In this document: positions 1-55,286 of the stretch, in pieces | Layout of the letters: every line of letters begins with the position of its first letter | Position numbering within the stretch: the first letter of the stretch is position 1 | NCBI GenBank assembly: GCA_016209145.1 | Contig: JACQWT010000394.1 | Span: forward strand, 1-55,286 | Source: Deltaproteobacteria bacterium | GTDB lineage: Bacteria; Myxococcota_A; Polyangia; Polyangiales; Polyangiaceae | DNA length: 55,286 nucleotides | Direction: 5' to 3' | Program-made: the position numbers and the translations under genes | Notes under the pieces: model-generated | Told to the model about the DNA's origin: nothing | Seen by the model: the letters and a program-made list of their open reading frames with translations, nothing else | Databases searched by the model: none

Positions 1-310
1 CTCTCCGCCGGCACCGTTCAGCGACCCCGACCGACTGACGACCGGGCCGCGGCTAGCCGCAACGCCTTGCGCACCGTCGGCCACCTGCTGTCACAGCCAC
101 ACACGAGCCCTGGCGGGTTTCGCCCGACACGCTCCTAGGCGCCGACGAATTGCTCATCATCCAGGTGCCGACCTCGGACCGCCGTGGCGCTGCGGTGGAC
201 AGCCGTCGCCGGCGGCTGGTGGCCGCCGGCCCGCGCCTTGCCGTTGTGGCGCGCTTCCGGGCGCCCGGCTGGGTGCGGCGGTAGGGCCGCCGTTGCGGCC
301 AGCCGCCCGG
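1..310. other. Gene-free left edge
   Basis: I see no convincing gene here. The long open frames crossing it are GC-rich shadows of the radical SAM gene to the right, with arginine/proline-rich translations and no homologous-looking motifs. Confidence 0.5.
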
Positions 311-1462
311 TCAGGCCCAGATCCCCGGTATGGCCCGCCCGCAGTCGGGGCAGCGGCCCGCCTTCAGGCGGTTCTCCAGCGCGGCCATGCCCAGGCGCCG
401 GATGAGCATCCGGCGGCAGCCGGGGCAGTAGGTGTTGTTCCCGGGGTGGGCGAGCACGTTGCCGACGTAGACGAAGTGCAGGCCCTCGCCGAGCGCGGCG
501 TCCCGCGCCCGCGTCAGCGTTGCCACCGGCGTCGCCGGCACGTTCATCAGCCGGTAGCTCGGGTGGAAGCGCGTGAAGTGCACGGGCACCTCGGGGCCGA
601 GCTCGGCGCGGACGAAGCGCCCGATCGCGCGCGCCTGCTCCACGCCGTCGTTCAGGCCCGGGATGAGAAGGACGACGATCTCGGTCCAGATCTTGCGCTT
701 CGCGAGCAGGCGCAGGGTGTCCAGCACCGGCGCGAGCCGGCCGCCGCACTGGTCGCGGTAGAAGGTGTCGTCCATGGCCTTGAGATCGATCTTCACCGCG
801 CCAAGCACGTCCCCGAGCTCGTTCATGGGCTGGGGCAGGATGAAGCCGTTCGAGACGAGCAGCGTGCGCACGCCGGCCTTCCGCGAAGCCGCGCCGATGT
901 CGTAGACGTACTCGGCCCAGACCACGGGCTCGCTGTAGGTGCAGGCGATGGTGGGCGAGCCCGTGCGGCGCGCCAGAGCGACGATGTCGTGGGGTGGGGC
1001 GGCGAGCGTGCGCACCTGCTCCGGCCGGACCTGTGAGATCTCCCAGTTCTGGCAGAACTTGCACTGCATGTTGCAGCCCGGATTGCCCAGCGAGAGCGCC
1101 GTCTGTCCGGGCAGCACGTGGTAGAATGGCTTCTTCTCGATGGGATCGACGTGCACGGAGCAGGGGCGCGCGTAGACGAGCGAGTAGTACTTGCCGCCGC
1201 GGTTCTCGCGCACGCCGCAACTGCCGCGCTCGCGATCGGCCACGCGGCACTCGTTGGGGCAGAGCGCGCACGCGACGCGGCCCTCGCCCGCGTCCTTCCA
1301 CCAGCGCGCGGGATGCAGGGTCAGGCCCGCCTCGGGGCCGGCGTCCAGGGCCGCGCCCTCCGCCCCGTCTTGCGCCGTCGCCCGATGCGCGAGGCACAGG
1401 GCGCCCGCGCCGCCCACGAGGGCGCCGAGCAAGCCGCGCCGGCCAAGGCCCGAGGCGCTCAT
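311..1462 (-). CDS. amrS: AmmeMemoRadiSam system radical SAM protein (AmrS-like), Tat-exported
   Basis: A 383-residue radical SAM protein. The N-terminus has a twin-arginine signal (GRRGLLG followed by a hydrophobic stretch), unusual for an iron-sulfur enzyme unless it is folded before export. A Cys cluster (CALCPNEC...GSCGVREN) precedes the radical SAM signature CNMQCKFC near residue 150, and a CPGC...CPDC pair near the C-terminus may bind zinc. These features match the AmmeMemoRadiSam radical SAM family, whose substrate is not established. The start ATG overlaps the stop of the DUF362 gene upstream (ATGA), so the two are probably co-translated. DUF362 proteins are often neighbours of this family. 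Confidence 0.85.
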   Translation of the reverse strand: MSASGLGRRGLLGALVGGAGALCLAHRATAQDGAEGAALDAGPEAGLTLHPARWWKDAGEGRVACALCPNECRVADRERGSCGVRENRGGKYYSLVYARPCSVHVDPIEKKPFYHVLPGQTALSLGNPGCNMQCKFCQNWEISQVRPEQVRTLAAPPHDIVALARRTGSPTIACTYSEPVVWAEYVYDIGAASRKAGVRTLLVSNGFILPQPMNELGDVLGAVKIDLKAMDDTFYRDQCGGRLAPVLDTLRLLAKRKIWTEIVVLLIPGLNDGVEQARAIGRFVRAELGPEVPVHFTRFHPSYRLMNVPATPVATLTRARDAALGEGLHFVYVGNVLAHPGNNTYCPGCRRMLIRRLGMAALENRLKAGRCPDCGRAIPGIWA

Positions 1463-2457
1463 ACGTCCACCACCTCGATGCGCGCCACATCGTGCTCGCC
1501 CAGGCCGAGCCTGGCGGCGGTGGCAATCCACTTCGGCTCCCGCCGCTCTGCGCCGAGCGACGGCAAGCCGATCTCCGCCCGGCGCTCCTCGATCGCGCGC
1601 CAGCAGACGGCGTCGATCGCCACCGGATCGGTGGAGCACAACACGCCGCTCCAGGGCCAGGCCCAGCGCGGGGAGCGCGCCGGGCCGCCGTGGCACTGCC
1701 CCACCAGGCCGTCTACCAGTGTGAGCCGCAGCTTGTCGCGGATGAGCGGGAAGGCGGCGAGATGGGCCACGTACGGATTGCAGCCGCCGCCGTGGTGCTT
1801 GTTCGGGTTGTGGATCGCGCCGTACCAGTTCTTCAGGCCCGCCGAGATGCCGGCCAGATCGTGGTCCTTTAGCACCGCGACGTTGATCAGGGCCGTGAGC
1901 TCGCTTGTGAGCAGCCGGGCGAAGCACGATCCGCCCGCGCCCCACTCCAGCGGCGTCCAGTCGTAGTCCTCGTTCGTGCCCAGGCAGCGCACGCCCGGGC
2001 CGTCGCGGTTGAGGGCGAAGCCGGCCCCGCTGAGCTCTCGGTCGGTGCGATCCCAGATGACGACGTTGCGCGCCGCCACGCCGGCCTCTTGCAGCCACCC
2101 GGCGAGCCGCAGCACGAGCTCGGGGTGAGGTGAGAGCCCGCGGCCGGCGATGGTGTTGACCTTGATGCCGACCACGTCGGCAGGCCGGAAGAGGCGGCGC
2201 AGAGCCTCGACCGGGCCCTTGGCGCCGCCAGCGCGCGTCAGGGCGGCACCGAGCAGGTCGGCGAGCTTGCCCGCGTCCACGGCGCCCGAGGCGGGATCGA
2301 TCGCGCCCGGCCGCCGCGCCCGCACGACCACCGGCCGGGCTGGCGCCCCGGCAGCTTCCGCCCGGGTGCCGCCGGGCCCGAGGCGCCCCGCGGTTGCCAG
2401 AGCGGCCACTCCGGCCAGGCCCTGGAGCATGCGGCGGCGGGTGCGTCGGCGAGCCAT
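1459..2457 (-). CDS. DUF362 domain protein with Tat-like signal
   Basis: A 332-residue protein beginning with an Arg-rich twin-arginine-like signal (MARRRTRRRML then a hydrophobic Ala/Leu stretch). The body has the DUF362 layout: a VGIKVN stretch, an LINVAVLKDHDLAG segment, an NWYGAIHNPNKHHG segment and LVDGLVGQCHGGP. DUF362 proteins are often iron-sulfur or redox related, but this copy shows no ferredoxin-type cysteine cluster, so the catalytic role is unknown. Its stop overlaps the start of the radical SAM gene by four bases. About 185 bp separate it from the next upstream minus-strand gene, so it may have its own promoter. Confidence 0.8.
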   Translation of the reverse strand: MARRRTRRRMLQGLAGVAALATAGRLGPGGTRAEAAGAPARPVVVRARRPGAIDPASGAVDAGKLADLLGAALTRAGGAKGPVEALRRLFRPADVVGIKVNTIAGRGLSPHPELVLRLAGWLQEAGVAARNVVIWDRTDRELSGAGFALNRDGPGVRCLGTNEDYDWTPLEWGAGGSCFARLLTSELTALINVAVLKDHDLAGISAGLKNWYGAIHNPNKHHGGGCNPYVAHLAAFPLIRDKLRLTLVDGLVGQCHGGPARSPRWAWPWSGVLCSTDPVAIDAVCWRAIEERRAEIGLPSLGAERREPKWIATAARLGLGEHDVARIEVVDV

Positions 2458-3167: not shown

Positions 3168-4159
3168 GACAAGCACCCGACCACCAGCGCGCCCACCAGG
3201 GCCACGATCGCGAGCAGCACGGCCGCGACCACGAGCAGGATCTTGGCGACCGACAGGGGCGCCTTGCCGAGCACGCAGCGCGCATCCTGGCCGTGCACGA
3301 TCGCGCGGTACAGGCCGCCGCCGTAGCGGTAGGCGAGCACGTACGTAGGCAGCGCCACGCGCCTCGTCTGCATGTCCTCGAGCAACGCGGCCACGTGCAC
3401 GTTGCGGAAGCTCGATCCCGGGATCGCGCCCTGCTGCAGCGCGGCGGCGGCCGTCGCCAGGATCGCCTCCACGATGGTGCGCCGTGCCGCCGAGCGCTGC
3501 ACGTCGAACTGCTCCAGCACCGCGCCCGCGGGCCCGATCCTCTCCGCGGGCTGCTGCCCCACCGGCAGGGCCGAACCGAGCTGAAAGCACGGGGCAAGGC
3601 GCGCGGCCTCGTCGGGCCCGAGGCCCCGGGAGGCGGAAACGAGCAGCCCCCTTAGCGGCAGGTGCGCCTGGCCGGCGTGCGGCGCCCAGGCCGCGCGCTG
3701 GGCGCCGGCGTTCGAGTCGGCCGTCCAGCTCACGAGCGCGCTCGCGTCCACGATCCACGCCGCCCACCAGATGGGGTGCAGGCCGGCAAGCGTCGCGCTC
3801 GTCGCCAGGTCGCCCGGCCGGAAGAAGCCGAGTGAGCCGAGCCACTGGCGCAGGGCGGCCTGCGCCAGCTCCGGCGCAACGGCGAATGGCAAGATCCAGT
3901 CGGCCTGGTCGACCGGATCCACGGGCTGCTCGATCCGCATCACCGAGGCGCAGAAACGGCACAGGGGCGCCTGTGCCTCGGCCGAGTACGACACGGCCGC
4001 GCCGCACTGGGTGCAACGCAGGATCTGCACGCTCCGTTGCACGGCCGGCCCGCTCGGGGCCGGGCAGGCCAGACCGCAGATGGCGCAGCGCAGATCCCCC
4101 GGCTCCAGGGGCCCGCGACAGCGCAGGCACGGCGCGCTCTGGGGCGCTCCCGCGCTCAT
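3164..4159 (-). CDS. Zinc-ribbon protein with C-terminal membrane segment
   Basis: A 331-residue protein. Residues 1-80 hold three paired-cysteine knuckles (CLRC, CAIC, CTQC...CRFC), enough for one or two zinc ribbons. The middle is a soluble domain rich in Trp (IWWAAWIVDAS). The C-terminus has the LPTYVLAYRYGGGLYRAIVHG motif followed by a long hydrophobic helix (ILLVVAAVLLAIVALVG). The next gene upstream has the same architecture, so the two are paralogues and may form a heteromeric membrane complex. ATGA overlaps on both sides indicate translational coupling. Function is not known. Confidence 0.7.
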   Translation of the reverse strand: MSAGAPQSAPCLRCRGPLEPGDLRCAICGLACPAPSGPAVQRSVQILRCTQCGAAVSYSAEAQAPLCRFCASVMRIEQPVDPVDQADWILPFAVAPELAQAALRQWLGSLGFFRPGDLATSATLAGLHPIWWAAWIVDASALVSWTADSNAGAQRAAWAPHAGQAHLPLRGLLVSASRGLGPDEAARLAPCFQLGSALPVGQQPAERIGPAGAVLEQFDVQRSAARRTIVEAILATAAAALQQGAIPGSSFRNVHVAALLEDMQTRRVALPTYVLAYRYGGGLYRAIVHGQDARCVLGKAPLSVAKILLVVAAVLLAIVALVGALVVGCLS

Positions 4160-15809: not shown

Positions 15810-15940
15810 GCGGGGCGTCCTTCGGGATGGCGATACCCGCGTGGCGCACGCCGGTCAACGCCGGCGCGGCAAGCGGCCCGCGGCGGCCATGATGGCATCT
15901 ACCTTGGCGCCATGCCGCGCAGGGGGCGCGCCGACGGCAA

Positions 15941-16060
15941 CTCCAAGGGCGATGCGGCCGCATCCAGGGTCCAGTTGCCGAAATGCGGCAACTCGCAGGC
16001 CGATGCGCACCGTATCGGGGGTCGAGTTGCCGCGATCGGGCCATTCGAGGGCCGATGCGG
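15941..16060. repeat. REP cluster, left of the transposase
   Basis: Two to three copies of an imperfect palindrome with outer arms GGCAACTC/GAGTTGCC and inner arms GCCGATGCG/CGTATCGG, separated by short spacers. The outermost copies are incomplete (ending CCATTCGAGGGCCGATGCGG). Units are about 44-50 bp. Confidence 0.8.
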
Positions 16061-16066
16061 TCCACA

Positions 16067-16912
16067 TCACGCGCGGCGAGCGGTGCGCGGAGCCGCCCAG
16101 CGGCGAAGCCTTTCGTCGCCTAGGCATAGCTCGGCCGCGTCGAGGCCGGCCCCATCGGCGCGGCCGAGATTCCACCGAATTGCCCGTCGGGACGCGCCGC
16201 ACAGCTCGGCCAGCCGCGGAGCATCTCGCCAGCCGTGTCGTCCGGCGAGCTGGAGGAAGAGAGCGCGCGTCGCCGATCTGCGGCCAACATCGGCGGGGGT
16301 GGCGCGGCTGGCCGCGGCAGCGGCGGCGACGAGCGCCTCTAGCGGCCGAGCCGCGATCTGGGAAGGCGCGGCGGGCCTCGGGAAGGGCGTACCCGTGACG
16401 CAGACCGAACCAGCGGCCGAGACGTAGGCGTGATGCGCCTGCGCGAAGCCGCGCGCGGTCAGGCCGAGGGCCGCGGCCACCCGGGCGGCGTCGACCCATG
16501 GCTCCGCGATGGCGCCGATCACGTCCCGATGGGTGGACCAGGGCCAGCCGAGCGGGTCGTCGACCAGGCGTGCGCGGCAGGGGTTGAGCGCGAGGTAGCG
16601 GACCAGGCGGCGCAGGTGCTTCGCGTCCGGGACGAGCTCCGGCGGTGCCGCCGGCTCCCAGGCGTCGGGAGCCGCCGGGTTGTTGCTCCGGCGCAGGCCG
16701 CTGATGATCGAGCCCAAGCGCAGCAATGCGGCGCCGGGATTCTCGGGAGCCGTGACGAGGTGGATGTGGTTGGGCATGATGACTGCCGCCAGCGCCGCCG
16801 AGAAGCCCCGGCACAGCCGGCCCCAAAGCCAGGATGCGACCTCGTGCTCGGTCAGGAGCACCGGCAGCCGGTAGACGCGGGCAGTGAGATGGATGGCGAC
16901 GAAGCTGTTCAT
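16067..16912 (-). CDS. REP-associated tyrosine (Y1/HUH) transposase
   Basis: A 281-residue protein starting at ATG 16912, which has GGAGG seven bases upstream. It shows the Y1 transposase hallmarks: the metal-binding HUH motif in IMPNHIHLVTAPE near residue 45 and the downstream helix YLALNPCRARLVDDP carrying the nucleophilic tyrosine, then WPWSTHRDVIG. The C-terminal third (ATRALFLQLAGRHGWRD... LAELCGASRRAIRW) is a helix-turn-helix common in this family. It should nick and join single-stranded DNA at REP palindromes. It appears full length, so it may still be active. Confidence 0.9.
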   Translation of the reverse strand: MNSFVAIHLTARVYRLPVLLTEHEVASWLWGRLCRGFSAALAAVIMPNHIHLVTAPENPGAALLRLGSIISGLRRSNNPAAPDAWEPAAPPELVPDAKHLRRLVRYLALNPCRARLVDDPLGWPWSTHRDVIGAIAEPWVDAARVAAALGLTARGFAQAHHAYVSAAGSVCVTGTPFPRPAAPSQIAARPLEALVAAAAAASRATPADVGRRSATRALFLQLAGRHGWRDAPRLAELCGASRRAIRWNLGRADGAGLDAAELCLGDERLRRWAAPRTARRA

Positions 16913-17118
16913 CGAGCGTCCTCCGAGCCGGGAGAAGTGCACCGGCCCACTCGTACGGATCTATCGACGCGAGGCCGATCGCAGTTGCGCGCTTTCGCAC
17001 CGGGCCGCTGCGGCGCAAGACCGGGCTTGGAGGCGGCGCGTGCGGGCGTGACCGCCAACGGCACCGGCGTCCGAGGGGCCCGGGACGGCGAGACCTAGCG
17101 GGGTCCGCGCTGCCGCGC

Positions 17119-17247
17119 GGCAATTCAGGGGCCGATGCGGTCGCATCGGGGGTCGAGTTGCCGCAATGCGGCAAGTCGAGGGCAGATGCGCACCGCATCG
17201 GGGGCCCAATTGCCGCAATCCGGCAATTCGAGGGCCGATGCGGCCTC
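17119..17247. repeat. REP cluster, right of the transposase
   Basis: Three consecutive units beginning GGCAATTC or GGCAAGTC, each with the inner palindrome GGCCGATGCG/CGCATCGGGGG, and closing with GAGTTGCC or CAATTGCC. Units of about 44 bp are separated by 7-bp spacers (GCAATGC, GCAATCC). The third unit is half-length. They match the left cluster. Confidence 0.85.
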
Positions 17248-48030: not shown

Positions 48031-48864
48031 GTGTCCAAGACCATCACGCGAGAGAGGTTGTGCCAACGGAGTTCCGGGGGATTGCGCGAGCTCGCCGACT
48101 GGCTCGGCCAAGCGCTCGCGGGCTACTGGCTCAAGACCGAGCTCCGTACCGAGCTTGGGATCGCGACGCCGAAGCCGTGGGCAGGGCGGCACGGTGCGGC
48201 GGTGGCGCTCTTCGCGCCGACGGAGCAGGTGGATGGTCTCGCGGAAGGGCTCCCGCTACCAATGCAATGGCGACGAGAAGCCGCCGACTCCGACATGGTC
48301 CCGGCCGGGCTGAGCACCGTCGCCGAAAGCGTCCGCCGGGAGCTCGGGATCGATGGCTGGGGCCTCGCGCTCGCCCGCGACCTCGACGACTACGACCTCT
48401 CCGAGCTGCCGCTTGCCGCGGAGTCGGCGTGGGCGGCGCTCGCTGCGGCGCTCGTGGTGGCTTGCGAGGGCGGCGCGGTGCGGCCGTGGGTATTCGCGAC
48501 CGGAGCGTGGGACGGTCACGGGATCGCGCGCGTAGAGCACATCAAGGCGAAGCTCGCGGCAGTGCGGAGCCTCGGCTGGGCGCCCGAGGGGCAGCGTCCC
48601 GTGCTGTGGGTGCCGGCCGGGAACTACGACGAGGCGCGGGCGGCTATCACGGACGAGGTCGAGCTGAAGTCCTATCCCGCGGGCGAGACGAAGGCTCGCC
48701 AAGCGCTCAGCGAGCACTTGTACAGCATCGAGGTGCCCCCGACCACGGACGAGCCGCTCGCGCGGCGGCGTGACTACGCCAATCGACCGTACTCTGCCGT
48801 TCCCGGTGTTCCGCGATGGCCGCGCGCTGTGGTTGCCGTTCGGAGGGGCAGGGGCTGGCCATGA
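48031..48864 (+). CDS. Lon-like Ser-Lys protease, CRISPR-neighbourhood
   Basis: About 277 residues from GTG 48031. Residues 105-210 match the Lon proteolytic fold: a strand GWGLALARDLDD, then ELPLAAESAWAALAAALVVA with the candidate nucleophile Ser132 at the place of the Lon PSAG motif, RPWVFATGAW at the place of the MTGEI strand, and VEHIKAKLAAVRSLG with Lys172 at the place of GG(L/I)KEKLLAA. The Ser-Lys gap of about 40 residues is close to that of Lon (S679/K722 in E. coli). No AAA+ ATPase and no CARF or SAVED domain are attached. The ORF ends ATGA with csm5, but its last 30 codons look out of frame. Protease-type effectors are known in type III systems (CalpL). Confidence 0.6.
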   Translation: MSKTITRERLCQRSSGGLRELADWLGQALAGYWLKTELRTELGIATPKPWAGRHGAAVALFAPTEQVDGLAEGLPLPMQWRREAADSDMVPAGLSTVAESVRRELGIDGWGLALARDLDDYDLSELPLAAESAWAALAAALVVACEGGAVRPWVFATGAWDGHGIARVEHIKAKLAAVRSLGWAPEGQRPVLWVPAGNYDEARAAITDEVELKSYPAGETKARQALSEHLYSIEVPPTTDEPLARRRDYANRPYSAVPGVPRWPRAVVAVRRGRGWP

Positions 48865-48868
48865 GTGA
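48770..48868 (+). other. Frame-switched coding tail between Lon-like gene and csm5
   Basis: In the +2 frame this reads TPIDRTLPFPVFRDGRALWL then PFGGAGAGHE and stop, with natural composition and G/C third positions, whereas the Lon-like frame loses coding character here. It is either the true end of the Lon-like protein after a frameshift or the last 30 residues of a deleted gene that once preceded csm5, for example csm4. It overlaps the csm5 start by 8 bp. Confidence 0.4.
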
Positions 48869-49430
48869 AAGGCGTCTGTACGTCCTCGAGGTGCTGACCC
48901 CGGTTCACGTGGGCTCGGGCATGCTGCTCCCGTCGAGCGAGGTTGCGTACGACGAGCGGGAGAACCGAAGCCACGTGCTCGACCTGGACGCAGCCCTGGA
49001 CGCGATCGGTCCTGAGGGCTTCCAGAGTGCCAAGGTCCCAGGGCCGAACGAGCTCCTGGCGCTGCTCCGGCGCCGCGGTGTCGCGCTGGACGCGGTGTGC
49101 TGGGAGTCCCTGAAGGGCCGCTTCACGGCAAGGGATCTGCGCCTGTGTGTGCGCGATGGGCGCGGGTGCCCCATTATCCCGGGCAGCTCCCTCAAGGGCG
49201 CGCTGCGCACGGCGGTGTTGGCGGGGCTCGCCTGGGACGCTGAGCGAGCGACGCGGACCGAGCGGGGTGAGGCAGCCGTGGGCCGCGCGCTGGCGTCGGG
49301 CGCCGCCGGGCCCTTCGAGACCGCCCTGCTCCGCCCCGACCTGCCAGAGCGGGGACAGCAGAGGCTCGACCCGCACCACGACCCTTTCAGGCTGCTCGCT
49401 GTCACTGACGCGACCTTCTCGTGCCGCGCG
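48861..49430 (+). pseudogene. csm5: Csm5-like RAMP protein, N-terminal part
   Basis: ATG 48861 gives a RAMP start: RLYVLEVLTPVHVGSGMLLP is the typical Csm5 first strand and Gly-His loop, followed by VLDLDAALDAI, and near residue 105 the glycine-rich RAMP loop PIIPGSSLKGALRTAVLAGL. DPFRLLAVTDATF near residue 185 is the expected LRVSDA strand. The similarity then ends and the frame changes near 49430, so only about half of the usual 350-450 residues is present. Csm5 caps the type III-A interference complex and recruits nucleases; this copy is unlikely to work. Other csm genes and cas10 are not in the window. Confidence 0.75.
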
Positions 49431-49713
49431 ACACGAGGAACCCGACATCGCGTCCGGCATCCCGCTCCGAGCCGCCCGCGCGGCGGCGCAGACGCCGGCG
49501 GCCCGCATCATGGCGGAGCTCGCGGTGCTCAGGTCGCACGAGCTCGCGGGCCGGCTGAAGGACATCTGGGACCGCGCCTCCAGGCAGTGCGAGGATCCGG
49601 CGGATCGGCGCAAGGCGGCCGAGGCAATCCGAGACCGAATGCGGGAGGCGAACCTGCTCAAGAAGTGGAAGGACAAGGCATGGGTCGCCGAGTTGCTCGC
49701 CGTGCTCTCGTGA
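49431..49713 (+). pseudogene. C-terminal fragment fused behind csm5
   Basis: In a different frame from the csm5 start: PDIASGIPLRAARAAAQTPA, then HELAGRLKDIWDRASRQCED, AAEAIRDRMREANLLKKWKD and a stop at 49713. It is strongly helical and charged, unlike a RAMP C-terminus. It is either the rest of csm5 after a frameshift or, more likely, the tail of another lost gene joined by deletion. Confidence 0.4.
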
Positions 49714-49854
49714 TTCCTGGCACGCCCGCCGCGAAGGCCGGGACGCGGGATTCAAGGGCGGCGCAGAGGGGCGTCTACAGGTGACTGCCCGGTCGGCACG
49801 TAGAGGCCAGCCAAGGCGCGGCCGCCCCCCGGCTGAACGATGGAGGATCAAGAC

Positions 49855-50676
49855 ATGGCTAGCAACGTTCACGTAGTAAGCTGCGGCACGAGCCCCCTCA
49901 GTTGGCTCACGCGCACCGACCTGTGCCTGTCTGACGGCACGCCCTTCAAGGAGTTCGCCCGCAAGCAGGACGATCTCGCGCGCCGCCTCGGCGAGGACCG
50001 GGAGGCGAACGCGCGCGCCGAGCGGGCCGTGCACGACAAGCCGCGCGAGGCGTCGGCGGAGATCCACGCCCTTTGGGAGTACCTCGAGCGGCGCGAGGTC
50101 GACTGGGCCTACCTCGTGACCACCGAGACGCGGGCTTCGCAGTGCGCGGCCGCGTGGATCCGGAGCTACCTCGCGCGCGAGGCGAAGGTGGCCCGGGTCG
50201 ATCTCGGCACCAAGTTCGTGGGCTACGAGGCTTCCGACGACGACGACAACGACAACGGACGCCTGGCGGACTTCGCCGCGCGCCTCCAGTTGCTGCGCGA
50301 TCGCACGATGCGTTTCGTGGAGCAGCGCAAGGCCGCGGGGGATCGCGTCTTCATCGCCGCGCAGGGCGGCTACAAGCCGGAGACGGGCATCATGATGCTG
50401 GTCGGCGCCGACACCGGCACGCCCGTCTACTACCTGCACGAGGAGATGCGCCGGACGGTCACGCTCCCGGTCCTGCGCTACCGCGGCGATGTCGGCTGGC
50501 TGCGCGAGCTGATTGGTGAGGGCGCGTCCGGTCCCGCGCTCGCGGAGCTCAAGCGGGAACATGGTGCCGAGCTCGAGGAGGCCATTCGCTGCTACGCCGT
50601 CGAGGCTCGACGCGACGACACCGGGGCCGTGGTGCGCGCGAAGCTCACCGCCTACGGCAAGTCGCTCGTGCCCTAG
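49855..50676 (+). CDS. APE2256-type CARF-domain protein (TIGR02619-like)
   Basis: A 273-residue protein; ATG 49855 has GGAGG eight bases upstream, better than ATG 49840. The N-terminal NVHVVSCGTSPLSWL is the first CARF strand with its nucleotide-binding loop; LVTTETRASQCAAAW and VFIAAQGGYKPETGIMMLVGAD are the later ligand-loop motifs of the APE2256/PF09651 family. The family includes ring nucleases and CARF sensors of cyclic oligoadenylate made by Cas10. Residues 200-273 form a short helical tail without a HEPN RxxxxH motif, so it is either a ring nuclease that degrades the second messenger or a sensor subunit. It appears intact. Converges with the HNH fragment. Confidence 0.8.
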   Translation: MASNVHVVSCGTSPLSWLTRTDLCLSDGTPFKEFARKQDDLARRLGEDREANARAERAVHDKPREASAEIHALWEYLERREVDWAYLVTTETRASQCAAAWIRSYLAREAKVARVDLGTKFVGYEASDDDDNDNGRLADFAARLQLLRDRTMRFVEQRKAAGDRVFIAAQGGYKPETGIMMLVGADTGTPVYYLHEEMRRTVTLPVLRYRGDVGWLRELIGEGASGPALAELKREHGAELEEAIRCYAVEARRDDTGAVVRAKLTAYGKSLVP

Positions 50677-51500
50677 AACGCCGGGGCCCACGCGCCCGGC
50701 CCACGCGGCGCGGTCGCTCCCGCCAGCCCCGCCAGCCCCGCGGCCGCCGCCGTCACCGCCCGCCCTGCCGCCTCGTAGCCCCACGCCGTCCTGCGCACTT
50801 GGCCTCCGAGCTCGAGCTCCAGGAGCGCGGCCGAGACGGCGCCCGCGGGCAGGCCGGTCGCCTGGCACAGCCCATCAGTGTGCCAGCCACCGCGGCCGCC
50901 CATGGCCCCCAGCACCGCGCTGGCCTCGGCCGACAACGCTCCCGGCCATGACCCACCTTGGGTCATCGGCCCCGCGCCGCCGGCCAGCGGGTCGACCAGC
51001 AGCACCCCAGCCGCGTCGTAGAACCGCAGCTCGCCGTCGGCGTCGCCCTCGATGCGGAGCTTGCCCTCGTGCAGCAGGGCATGGTGCGTTGAGCACAAGC
51101 AGACGCACCCAGCCCGCGAGTGCTCCCCGCCCAGGGCCTGGGGCCGGATGTGATGCACTTCGACGTAGCGCCGCCGGGTGCAGCCAGGTGCCCGGCAACG
51201 GCACCGGTCCCGCAGCTTGACCGCCCGGCGCACCGCCGCCGGCAACTGTCCGCCACGCTGCACCACCCGGCCATCGGTCTCAAGGTCGCGCACCCGCGCG
51301 CCGCAGCCGAGCCGCGCCGCCGCCTCCGGAGCGAGCTCCACCGCGCCCGCGCCCGTCTCCAGCTCGGTCTGGCCGCACTGCCGGCATTCGTAGAGCACCA
51401 CCGTACGCTCCGGCTCCGCCGCCCCCTCGGCGCCCTCGGCCTGGTGCGCCAGGGCCTCGCGTGCCACCTCTCGCTCGTCACGGGCGCGCGGGCGGATCTG
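50673..51500 (-). pseudogene. HNH endonuclease, 5'-truncated
   Basis: The minus-strand frame encodes the C-terminal part of a myxobacterial HNH protein: VVLYECRQCGQTELETGAG, then RRAVKLRDRCRCRAPGC, RRRYVEVHHIRPQALGGEHS, CLCSTHHALLHEGKLRIEGD, with Cys pairs and the HNH His residues. Such proteins normally have some 250-300 residues before this. Upstream the frame dissolves at about 51490-51500, exactly where the Csm6-like HEPN sequence begins on the other strand. The 3' end overlaps the CARF gene stop by four bases. These HNH proteins are often multi-copy and may spread as mobile genes. Confidence 0.65.
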
Positions 51501-52316
51501 GTGCGCGTGAGCGGCGGCGCCGAGCGCGCGTGCCTGGTGGACGACAGCCCCCTGCGGGCGCGCTGGCTCCTCGGCGAGGCGGACCGCGCCTGGCGCAGGT
51601 TCGGCTACGCGGAGGCGGCCGCGCTGCTCGAGCAGTGCCGCCGCCAGGATGCAGCCGTCGACCGGGCCCTGCTCCTGAGCCGCGGCTTCGCGGCCTGGGA
51701 CCGGTTCGACCACGAGGAGGCGTACCAGAAGCTCCGGGAAGCAGCGGGTGGGGGGCTGCCCGAGTGGGTTCTGCCGGCACTCGGCGAGCTGCGGCGCGGC
51801 CGCGAGCAGGCCACCGAGAGGTCGGACGCGTACCGGCTCTGGGATCTGTGGCTCACGGCCTGCCGCCGCGCGGAGGCACAAGCCTACGATGTCGGTGTGC
51901 TCCTGCTCTACCGGTGCCTGGAGGCCATGGCGCAGTGGACCTTGCGCTGGCACCACCACGTCGACACGGGCGACGTGGCGCGCGACGAGGCCGAGCGGGT
52001 CGGCATCGCCGACCTGACCGCCCCCGACCACCACGGGCGGCTCGTCATGTCCATGCACAAGGCATGGAGCGCCGTTGCCCGGCTGGGCGGACCGCTTGCC
52101 GAGGTCGGAGCGAGGACCGACGAGCGCAGGCGGGATTTCGCCGACAGGCGCAACCACTCGCTGCTTGCGCACGGTGAGACGCCCCTTCGCGAGGAGCACT
52201 TCCGCAGCGCCCGCGAGCTCCTGGAGCGCGAGGCCATGGGACACTTCCGCAAGGTGGCGTTCAAGGGTCGCGAGCCGTACCCGCAGCTTCCCACGGCGAT
52301 CCCGCCCGTGCGGTGA
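51487..52316 (+). pseudogene. Csm6/TIGR02710-like HEPN protein lacking its CARF half
   Basis: The plus-strand frame from about 51487 has the middle and C-terminal layout of TIGR02710/Csm6-like proteins: RARWLLGEADRAWRRFGYAE, then LTACRRAEAQAYDVGVLLLY followed by RCLEAMAQWTLRW, and the HEPN active site RRNHSLLAHG (R-x4-6-H) near the end. Full-length relatives carry an N-terminal CARF domain of 150-200 residues, which is missing because the sequence turns into the opposing HNH gene. The RNase part could still fold, but without a start codon or CARF it is probably not controlled or not expressed. The longer track ORF upstream is shadow. Confidence 0.65.
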
Positions 52317-52425: not shown

Positions 52426-53748
52426 ATGAGCACGAGCGCCGAACCCGTCGCGACCCTCACGGCCGAGTCGCTGCTCGGCACGCTGGCGGCGGCCAAGAAG
52501 CGCCGCGACTGGGAGGCCATCGCCCGGCACGCGGCCGAGGTGCCGGAGCAGCTCGCGGGCGCGTGGGTGCAGGTCGCCGACGAGATCGGCTTCGCCCTCG
52601 GTCAGCTCCGCCGCACCGACGAGGCCGCCGCGCTGTTCGAGCGCGTGTACGTCGTGGCCCCGTCGCGCCGCATCGCCAGCGCGCTCGCCTACGTGTACTA
52701 CGACGCGCTGCTCGGCCGGCGCACGCGCCAGGCCGAGCGCGGGGGCCAGGCGGCCGCGGCCGGGCGCGACCGGGAGGCCGACCGCAAGGCGTTCGCGCGC
52801 TGGATGGGCGAGGCCCTGCGCCTCGAGCCCCGCTCGATCAAGGATCTGTACCGGCTTGGGGTGTTCGAGGCCCAGGTCGAGAGCCGTCATGACAAGCCGG
52901 CGCTGCGCGCGTTCGTTGCGGCCATCGAGAGCTACCGGGCGCTGCCGGCCGACGAGCGCCAGTGGCGCGGCGACCTGCGCAAGCCCTACGTCCGCTCGCT
53001 GTACGCAGGGGCGAGATCCGCGCTGCGCCTGAGCGATCTCGACCGCGCCCGCCGGCTGTCCTTCGACTGCATCCGCGAGGACGAGCAGACGGACCACGTG
53101 GCGCCGGTGCACAAGCTCTACCTCGCCGGCAAGATCTGCGCCGCGCTCGGCCGCAGCGCGGACGCGGAGCGGGCGTATCGCAAGGCCCTGGCGGCCAAGG
53201 GCCCGCCCGAGCGCGACTACGTCCACGCCGCCCTGGCTGCGCTGGCGCTTGCCACGGGCCGCGCCGAGGACGCCGAGCGCTGGATCGAGGCCAACGTGCC
53301 GCCGCATCGGCGCAAGCCCGTGCTGTGGCGGCTGGTGGGCGACGTGAAGGTGGCGCGCGGCCGCGGGCGCGAGGCGCTGCTCGCCTACCAGAACGCGCTG
53401 CGCAAGGACCGGGCCGGCCGCCACCTGACGCTCACGGCGATGGGCGCCCTGGAGCTCGCGGCGGGCAACGCGCAGAAGGCGGCCGAGCACTTCCGCCAGG
53501 CCAACGACTTTCGGCGCCGCAAGTACCTCTCCGAGCACCTTCCCGCGCTCGACGGGCTGGCGACCGCGCTTTGGGCGCTCGGCCGCGACCGGGACGCTGC
53601 CGACGCACGGGCCGCGGCCGAAGGGCTGCGCGAGGGCCGGGCGGGCCGCGGCAGGCCGGGGCCGGGCGGGCTCGCCTCGGGGCGCGCCGTCGAGCCGGCC
53701 AGCGCGGACGACGCGCCCGCCGAGGACGAGGCCGCCGAGCAAGGGTGA
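52426..53748 (+). CDS. TPR-like protein of the primase-polymerase locus
   Basis: A 440-residue helical-repeat protein from ATG 52426 (GGAGG seven bases upstream). TPR-like units are visible: WVQVADEIGFALGQLRRTDE, LYLAGKICAALGRSADAERA followed by YRKALAA, LWRLVGDVKVARGRGREALL, TAMGALELAAGNAQKAAEHF. The last 40 residues are low-complexity and acidic. It overlaps the primase gene by GTGA, so the two are coupled. TPR proteins frequently accompany CRISPR-associated primase-polymerases, and the primase itself starts with a short TPR-like part. It probably scaffolds that enzyme. Confidence 0.7.
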   Translation: MSTSAEPVATLTAESLLGTLAAAKKRRDWEAIARHAAEVPEQLAGAWVQVADEIGFALGQLRRTDEAAALFERVYVVAPSRRIASALAYVYYDALLGRRTRQAERGGQAAAAGRDREADRKAFARWMGEALRLEPRSIKDLYRLGVFEAQVESRHDKPALRAFVAAIESYRALPADERQWRGDLRKPYVRSLYAGARSALRLSDLDRARRLSFDCIREDEQTDHVAPVHKLYLAGKICAALGRSADAERAYRKALAAKGPPERDYVHAALAALALATGRAEDAERWIEANVPPHRRKPVLWRLVGDVKVARGRGREALLAYQNALRKDRAGRHLTLTAMGALELAAGNAQKAAEHFRQANDFRRRKYLSEHLPALDGLATALWALGRDRDAADARAAAEGLREGRAGRGRPGPGGLASGRAVEPASADDAPAEDEAAEQG

Positions 53749-53771
53749 CAAGCGAGGAGCGGGGACGCGTG

Positions 53772-55286
53772 ATGCCGGCGATGGAAGATCCTCTCGAGGC
53801 GGCGCGCGCGGCGCTCTCCGGCAACGAGCCCGAGCACGTCGCCGAGCTGTGGCGCGAGGCCGATGCCCGGGCGCTCGATCCCGGCCGTCGCTTCGAGTGG
53901 CTGCTGCTGCTGCTCGAGGCCGGCGACGCCGCCACGGCGAGCGCAGCGGCCGGAGCGCTCGCCGGCACCGAGTGGGAGGCGCGGGCCGCCGCCCTGCTCG
54001 AGGCCGGCGAGGCCGATGACACGCCGGCCGGCGCCGAGCCGGCCGAGGACGACGTCGAGGTGGACGAGGTGCTCAGGCTCGCGGCGCCCGACACCGACGC
54101 CGCGCTCGTCGAGCGCTTCCTGCGCTGGTTCGGCGGTCGCAAGGATCTGCACGCGCGCCAGTGGTACGACGAGCGGCGGCGCCGCTCCGGCTACCGCCTG
54201 GTCGAGGAGCCGCTCACGGCCGAGGTCGCCCGCCTGCACCTCGCCGGCCGGCTCACCCTGGGTCAGTACCTGCTCTTCCCCGACGGGAGCTGCGCGTTCG
54301 GCGTCGTCGATCTGGATCTGTCCGCCAGTGCGCTCGCCGAGCTGCGCGCCACGCGCGGCGACGCGGTCCGGCCGGTCGAGCACGGGCCGCTGCGCGACTA
54401 CGCGCTGCGGCTGGTCGAGGCCGCGCGGCGGCTCGGGCTGGGGCTGTTCGCCGAGGACAGCGGCGGCCGTGGCCTGCACCTGTGGCTGTTCTTCGAGCCG
54501 CGGCGGCCGGCGCGCGCGGTCCGCGCGCTGCTCGGGCAGCTCGTAGTAGCCGCCGGGAGCCAACCGCCCGATGTCGCGGTCGAGATCTTCCCCAAGCAGG
54601 ACCGGCCGGGCCCGAAGGGGCTGTCGAGCCTGGTCAAGCTCCCGCTCGGCATCCACCAGGCGACGCTGCGGCGTTGCGCGCTGCTCGACGAGAAGCTCGA
54701 TCCCGTCGAGGATCCCTGGGCGGCGCTCGATCGGCTGCGCGCCGCGGCGCCCGACGTCGTGGACGACGTCCTCGGCCGCCGACTGGTGATCATGCCGACG
54801 CCCTGCCGCTGCCCGAGCTGCCCGCCGTGCCGAGCGCCCGCGGTCTGGCGGAGGCGCTGCGCGCCATCGAGCCCGGCAGGCCCGAGCGGGCGGCGTGCGA
54901 GGCCATGCTCGCGGGCTGCGCCGTGCTCCGGCGCCTGGTCAAGATCGCCTACGCCGAACGGCGTCTGGATCCGGCCCAGGCCCGCGCCGTGGTCTACACG
55001 CTGGGTCTCGTCGGGCCCGCCTGCGCGCTCGCCGACGAGATCTTCGACACGGCCGGGGCGTCACGCAAGGAGCTCGGCCGGGCGCGAGCCGGCCTGCCCT
55101 CGCCCGCCGGGTGCAAGGGGCTGCGCCGGCTTGCCCTGGCCGGGCCCCCCGACTGCCCGTGCCCCGAGCTGAGCGAGGCTCAGCCCTACGCGAGTCCGGC
55201 CCTGTTCGCCGTCGGCGCGGCGCCGCCCTCGCCGCCTGCCTGGGCCCAGTTCGGGCCGTTCCTCGAGGGCGTCACGGATCAGGCCG
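53772..55286 (+). pseudogene. CRISPR-associated primase-polymerase-like AEP protein, frameshifted, runs off the window
   Basis: From ATG 53772 (GTG 53745 possible). Residues 1-105 are TPR-like. The AEP domain follows: FLRWFGGRKDLHARQWYDER, FGVVDLDLSAS (catalytic DxD near residue 178), DSGGRGLHLWLFFEPRRP (catalytic His) and VAVEIFPKQDRPGPKGL. The layout matches the primase of CRISPR-associated primase-polymerases and TOTE-type systems. Near 54790 the coding signal jumps by one base to the +2 frame (ALPLPELPAVPSARGLAEAL, AVVYTLGLVGPA, GCKGLRRLALAGPPDCPCPEL), the expected PriCT-like C-terminal region, which stays open to the window end. Such enzymes fill or prime DNA during spacer acquisition with Cas1 and reverse transcriptase. 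Confidence 0.75.

Follow-up and report, generated by a model that had tools for sequence, protein, structure and literature searches.

At the right-hand end of a contig from a Deltaproteobacteria assembly we identified two adjacent genes, one for a TPR-repeat protein and one for a CRISPR-associated primase-polymerase (CAPP), which most probably (we put the probability at about 85%) are the first two genes of an adaptation operon with the order TPR–CAPP–cas1–cas2–array, serving type III CRISPR and carrying a CAPP of class A, TPR type. The locus belongs to an already known kind (i.e., CAPP_A, TPR type), and its most useful new detail is a reliable stand-alone TPR partner. Throughout, "the window" denotes the whole stretch of DNA that was analysed: its 55,286 bases make up an entire contig (C327), so that the right end of the window is the end of the contig, the CAPP reading frame is still open at position 55286, and the sequence to the right of CAPP is therefore unreadable. 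The assembly comprises 596 contigs and 7.9 Mb (92% complete, 8% contamination), and when it was searched for contigs that overlap C327 at its right end, only C327 itself and a 25-base chance match came up. In 3 of 9 assemblies the sequence breaks off within CAPP or at its end, namely in G192 (contigs C154 and C111), in G130 (C96 and C64) and in C327.

A primase-polymerase gene with intact catalytic motifs

The N-terminal helical region and the AEP catalytic domain of CAPP span positions 53745–54803 of the forward strand, with a start at either GTG 53745 or ATG 53772; the GTG start overlaps the stop codon of the TPR gene by 4 bases, as it does in several relatives. This part of the gene was matched, at levels well beyond chance, by the Pfam AEP-TOTE family (E = 1.9e-34), by NCBIfam NF040561 (CAPP type A1; 1.2e-47, 162.6 bits) and by PADLOC PDLC01101 (PrimPol, adaptation polymerase; 4.6e-34), while among solved structures the AEP part matched only the core of the Marinitoga CAPP (PDB 7nqd/7nqf; 1.3e-20, 77 bits). 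Together, the N-terminal region and the AEP domain shared 51–66% identity with the seven nearest complete orthologs. In the stretch of about 105 residues ahead of the AEP domain, Pfam TPR models gave no match.

A first-pass annotation had named the gene from its AEP motifs, and these did match CAPP. Motif I (VVDLDLS, 54303–54323, forward strand) aligns with the metal-binding DID pair of the Marinitoga protein, and motifs II (SGGRGLHLWLFF, 54459–54494, forward strand) and III (EIFPKQ, 54582–54599, forward strand) were placed by alignment with the orthologs and the PDB core. All three lie in one frame, conform to the AEP class pattern (hhhDhD, SxH-type, h(D/E)) and are kept across eight aligned CAPPs. 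The DxD pair is kept as well (residues 180 and 182 of the translated protein, P0006); its counterpart in the Marinitoga enzyme MpCAPP, D177/D179, is essential (PMC8211822). The gene is a CAPP with intact catalytic motifs.

The curated NF040561 cut-off of 200 bits applies to the whole protein and was not reached by either piece of this gene (162.6 bits for the N-terminal and 14.2 bits for the C-terminal piece), the pieces having been scored separately in a gene that is split and cut by the contig end. Since the best Pfam name is AEP-TOTE, and mobile elements can carry CAPP homologues with no CRISPR genes beside them (PMC8211822), one could read the gene as the primase of a mobile element or of a TOTE conflict system with no CRISPR link. 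We consider this scarcely credible: NF040561 matches better than AEP-TOTE, the closest relatives all adjoin cas1–cas2 or an array, and CARF and RAMP genes lie directly upstream in the window.

A frame break and a cysteine-bearing C-terminal domain

Between the AEP and C-terminal domains the CAPP gene is interrupted by a frame break of one base. The coding signal switches from frame 2 to frame 1 at approximately position 54793, and alignment puts the break at about 54800–54805 (forward strand), in the interdomain linker, with both sides aligning to unbroken relatives. The break is either a sequencing error or a real mutation.

The PriCT-like C-terminal domain occupies positions 54800–55286 (forward strand) and is cut off by the contig end, with some 30–60 C-terminal residues missing relative to relatives. 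The first-pass annotation had already pointed to a PriCT-like tail, GCKGLRRLALAGPPDCPCPEL, which is real and part of CAPP, though its frame (from 55109) is not that of the AEP motifs and it had been read across the frame break. On its own, the C-terminal piece matched PDLC01101 (7.8e-9) and, weakly, NF040561 (0.012), and the domain was 46–58% identical to its orthologs. PDLC01101 matches CAPP in both pieces; the profile records only that proteins of this sort are listed among defence genes.

Four conserved cysteines of this domain are encoded by codons starting at 54917, 55112, 55154 and 55160. Their spacing in the window CAPP is C-x64-C-x13-C-x-C, most relatives have a terminal CxxC, and the cysteines are also present in an RT-CAPP from Desulfovirgula (L019). 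They may possibly coordinate a metal or an Fe-S cluster in the manner of PriL. A review has proposed that the C-terminal domain of CAPP helps to hold the initiating nucleotide, like Pri2 (PMC10345425). An AlphaFold model of the domain (pLDDT 51, pTM 0.37) was not good enough to search for similar folds, and a PDB profile search with the domain returned two designed proteins only (E = 0.07 and 0.33).

A TPR gene strictly paired with TPR-type CAPP

The gene immediately upstream (52426–53748, forward strand; ATG at 52426, stop at 53748) encodes a TPR-repeat protein of 440 residues, the conserved partner of the CAPP gene. The first-pass annotation of a TPR protein beside a primase-polymerase was borne out by a Pfam TPR_2 match (1.1e-6) and by PADLOC PDLC01172 (TPR), which covers residues 14–401, i.e., nearly end to end (6.7e-50). 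The protein is 44–51% identical to seven orthologous proteins, and its PDB matches are to generic TPR only. The existence of a PADLOC profile means that the family has been seen before, the profile recording such proteins only as catalogued among defence genes; we found no paper describing the family among those searched, and the literature from 2021 on gave only the CAPP paper PMC8211822.

Wherever the contig permits, the TPR gene lies immediately 5' of CAPP in the orthologous loci. To quantify this pairing, we built a profile from eight TPR proteins of these loci and searched 318 genomes of the class at a threshold of E < 1e-20. Nine genomes matched, exactly the nine with a TPR-type CAPP; as the profile was made from the same genes, this result demonstrates the pairing of orthologs and does not speak to distant TPR relatives elsewhere. 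Within that scope, the pairing of the TPR gene with the TPR-type CAPP clade is strict.

Orthologous loci with cas1, cas2 and arrays

A search of 194 related genomes yielded eight close CAPP orthologs besides the one in the window. Seven loci extend beyond a complete CAPP, and in all of them the gene is followed directly by cas1 and then cas2, with nothing between CAPP and cas1 (G192, L048; G015, L049; G130, L050; G157, L051; G029, L053; G149, L054; G143, L055). Representative cas1 and cas2 genes were verified by Pfam (Cas1, 6.8e-87; Cas2, 7.8e-20), and CAPP and cas1 overlap by 4 bases in the three loci checked (L048, L050 and L053). A CRISPR array lies beyond cas2 in six of the seven loci (L049, L050, L051, L053, L054 and L055); at L048, the contig stops 451 bases past cas2. 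The arrays hold from 5 to 46 copies with a period of about 69–78 bases (mostly 72–77), and most share the repeat GTCTCAATCCCCT or a close variant of it, the repeats of G015 and G130 having been read from the other strand (GGGGATTAAGAC and GGGGATTGAAAC, respectively). Possible CAPP–Cas1 fusions at two further loci (L038 and L040) proved wrong, as a stop separates the two genes.

In the eighth genome, G037, a TPR-type CAPP (L056; contig C445, positions 1–875) is truncated after roughly 217 codons and runs straight into a CRISPR array, with no cas1, cas2 or leader; either a deletion or a wrong join in the assembly accounts for this.

We built a tree of 30 AEP domains, in which the CAPP of the window fell inside the TPR-CAPP clade with support of 100/99. 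Given that cas1–cas2 follow in 7/7 and an array in 6/7 of the relatives' loci, and that these lack a reverse transcriptase (RT), cas1, cas2 and an array very likely came next in the ancestral locus and an RT did not; in the present copy, cas1, cas2 and the array would lie, or once have lain, beyond the contig end. The earlier expectation of cas1, cas2 and an array to the right is in this way strongly supported by the conserved synteny of relatives.

RT-CAPP and the Marinitoga enzyme

The first-pass annotation had recognised a CRISPR adaptation module and expected that it might include an RT. Judging from synteny in relatives, the kind of system was correctly named, while the RT expectation was not supported. 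No RT was found between the TPR gene and cas2 in the seven orthologous loci, and Pfam, NCBIfam and PADLOC profiles showed no RT domain joined to the window CAPP and no RT immediately 5' of it.

RT-CAPP fusions do exist nearby. In relatives of the same order or class we found RT-CAPP loci (L061–L067) arranged as cas2–RT.CAPP–cas1 where readable, and Desulfovirgula L019 is a further RT-CAPP; Pfam confirmed the RVT_1 domain only in L019, L064 and L065. Both kinds coexist in one genome, G029, with the RT type on C375 and the TPR type on C234. RT-CAPP resembles the window CAPP in having a related AEP and C-terminal domain and cas1 and cas2 as neighbours, and differs from it in the RT at its N-terminus, in the cas2–RT.CAPP–cas1 order seen in the window's relatives and in forming a separate clade in the AEP tree. 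A module of the RT-CAPP or RT-Cas1 sort, with a reverse transcriptase, might be argued for from the fusions with cas1 and cas2 in relatives (L062, L064, L065) and Desulfovirgula L019, and from the presence of both kinds in G029. Nevertheless, the window CAPP groups with the RT-free loci of the TPR type (100/99), and all seven of these have cas1 directly after CAPP and no RT, which makes such a module highly improbable.

The closest characterised system is the Marinitoga CAPP (MpCAPP, AEX84846, and MsCAPP; PDB 7nqd, 7nqf, 7p9j and 7qaz), which is likewise CAPP_A of the TPR type (PMC8211822). The two have in common a region before the AEP domain, the same AEP motifs, a C-terminal domain with conserved cysteines and an operon shared with cas1 and cas2 in genomes that have type III systems (here, from the orthologous loci). 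By contrast, CAPP in the window has a separate, larger TPR gene ahead of it, we saw no Argonaute gene, and the CAPP gene is frame-broken and cut by the contig end.

Type III surroundings and the state of this copy

The forward strand carries a series of type III genes 5' of the TPR gene, several of them fragmentary. A CARF region like that of CARF-Lon (48080–48864; PDLC01981, 3.8e-37, profile positions 24–240 of 408) lacks the C-terminal part of the profile. It is followed by a short Csm5-like RAMP gene (48861–49713; TIGR01899 csm5, 3.7e-10; Pfam RAMPs, 1.5e-11), frame-broken near 49416–49432, and by a CARF protein of the APE2256/TIGR02619 family (49840–50676; Pfam, 3.2e-23; TIGR02619, 6.1e-18; PDLC01926, 1.8e-30). 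Closest to the TPR gene is the C-terminal part of a CARF-HEPN effector of Csx1/Csm6 type (51471–52316; TIGR02710, 2.5e-29, profile positions 101–378 of 384; PDLC01796, 8e-52, positions 130–399 of 401; Pfam Csm6 HEPN, 2.4e-14), whose N-terminal 100–130 residues or so (CARF) are missing.

Abutting this N-truncated gene in antisense is an HNH-type fragment (50673–51478, reverse strand), named from its sequence with no profile confirmation; its reading frame also matches the DprA winged helix (2.4e-13). A similar HNH-type fragment occurs in the same assembly on contig C146 (locus L007, 3260–3811, reverse strand), and a palindrome, TGACCCA..TGGGTCA, lies inside both fragments (at 50949 in the window; at 3452 and 3524 in L007). 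The 3.8-kb contig C146 also has a Cas4–Cas1 fusion gene near its left end (198–2181, reverse strand) and a PIN-like toxin gene; effector genes were not seen on it. Elsewhere in the window, roughly 50-base repeats that contain a palindromic TTGCCGCAATGCGGCAA core (15935–16060 and 17118–17243) flank a reading frame with an MPNHIHLV motif (16421–16910, reverse strand), like REP sequences around a RAYT transposase.

We searched the window's assembly for the remainder of the system. Two profiles found no Cas10; no RAMP gene was found except the broken csm5; no repeat of the orthologs' array family was found; and there was no cas1 of the TPR-CAPP clade, the best match being 35% identical (a Cas4–Cas1 fusion). 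As candidate neighbouring contigs we rejected C146 and C25, whose Cas4–Cas1 fusions are 35% and 32% identical to the clade Cas1, respectively, and which show no continuation of the window, as well as C56 and C389, where the Cas1 matches are weak or split and lie near repeats at a spacing of 60–61 bases, again with no continuation. A Csm1 match on C155 was weak and judged to be due to chance. Among the relatives, Cas10 is present in 7 of the 8 ortholog genomes, a count that covers the ortholog genomes only and not the class-wide background rate, and at L051 a cas6 gene and a Cas10/Cmr2 gene lie close 5' of the TPR gene.

Counted against the operon reading, then, are the absence of cas1, cas2 and an array from the window and of any such genes of the clade from the rest of the assembly, the lack of Cas10, the broken csm5 as the only RAMP, the CAPP frame break and the NF040561 score below its cut-off. 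With no clade cas1, repeats or Cas10 and with fragmentary type III genes, this copy may be decayed or merely unassembled. If decayed, the genome would once have had the complete operon together with a type III effector, cas1, cas2, the array and Cas10 would have been lost, and TPR–CAPP and the CARF fragments would be the remnant. Such decay is compatible with all the gene identities given above and differs from the operon reading only in the state of this copy. It accords with the damage to CAPP and csm5, with the CARF-HEPN gene that has lost its N-terminal part beside the antisense HNH fragment, with the missing C-terminal part of the CARF-Lon region, with an assembly that lacks Cas10, other RAMPs, clade cas1 and the family repeat, and with the relative G037, where CAPP is broken off directly at an array. 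On the other hand, the contig ends exactly where cas1 should start in a genome of 596 contigs that is 92% complete, and CRISPR arrays often break assemblies. The frame breaks could be sequencing errors; apart from them, the TPR gene and AEP domain show no damage, and every catalytic residue is kept. On balance we regard decay as rather unlikely.

A possible role in spacer acquisition

Primase, polymerase and strand-displacement activity and binding to Cas1–Cas2 have been shown only for MpCAPP and DbCAPP; MpCAPP uses GTP for priming, elongates DNA, carries out strand displacement on integration intermediates and binds Cas1–Cas2 (PMC8211822). By analogy with the Marinitoga enzyme, the window CAPP would be a DNA-dependent DNA primase and polymerase capable of priming, strand displacement and Cas1–Cas2 binding, and we infer a role in spacer uptake. 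Most likely, CAPP would bind the Cas1–Cas2 integrase and either make or complete DNA on captured prespacers or fill in and displace strands at the half-integrated array. The outcome would be a double-stranded new spacer–repeat. The separate TPR protein would most likely act as a scaffold bridging CAPP, Cas1–Cas2 and perhaps the type III effector.

We further suggest, tentatively and at slightly less than even odds, that there is a TPR–CAPP–Cas1–Cas2 acquisition complex of which the separate TPR protein is a dedicated and indispensable member, and that TPR–CAPP–cas1–cas2–array is a portable cassette moving independently of its type III effector. The location of Cas10 on a contig other than that of the cassette in G029 and G149 was counted in favour of portability.

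Few polymerases are believed to work in the acquisition of CRISPR spacers; CAPPs belong to these, and little is known of their partners. The TPR gene is a concrete candidate for such a partner, and one that can be tested in vitro together with Cas1–Cas2. The occurrence of RT-free TPR-CAPP and RT-CAPP loci within one order, and once within the same genome, provides a natural comparison that bears on DNA versus possible RNA sources of spacers.
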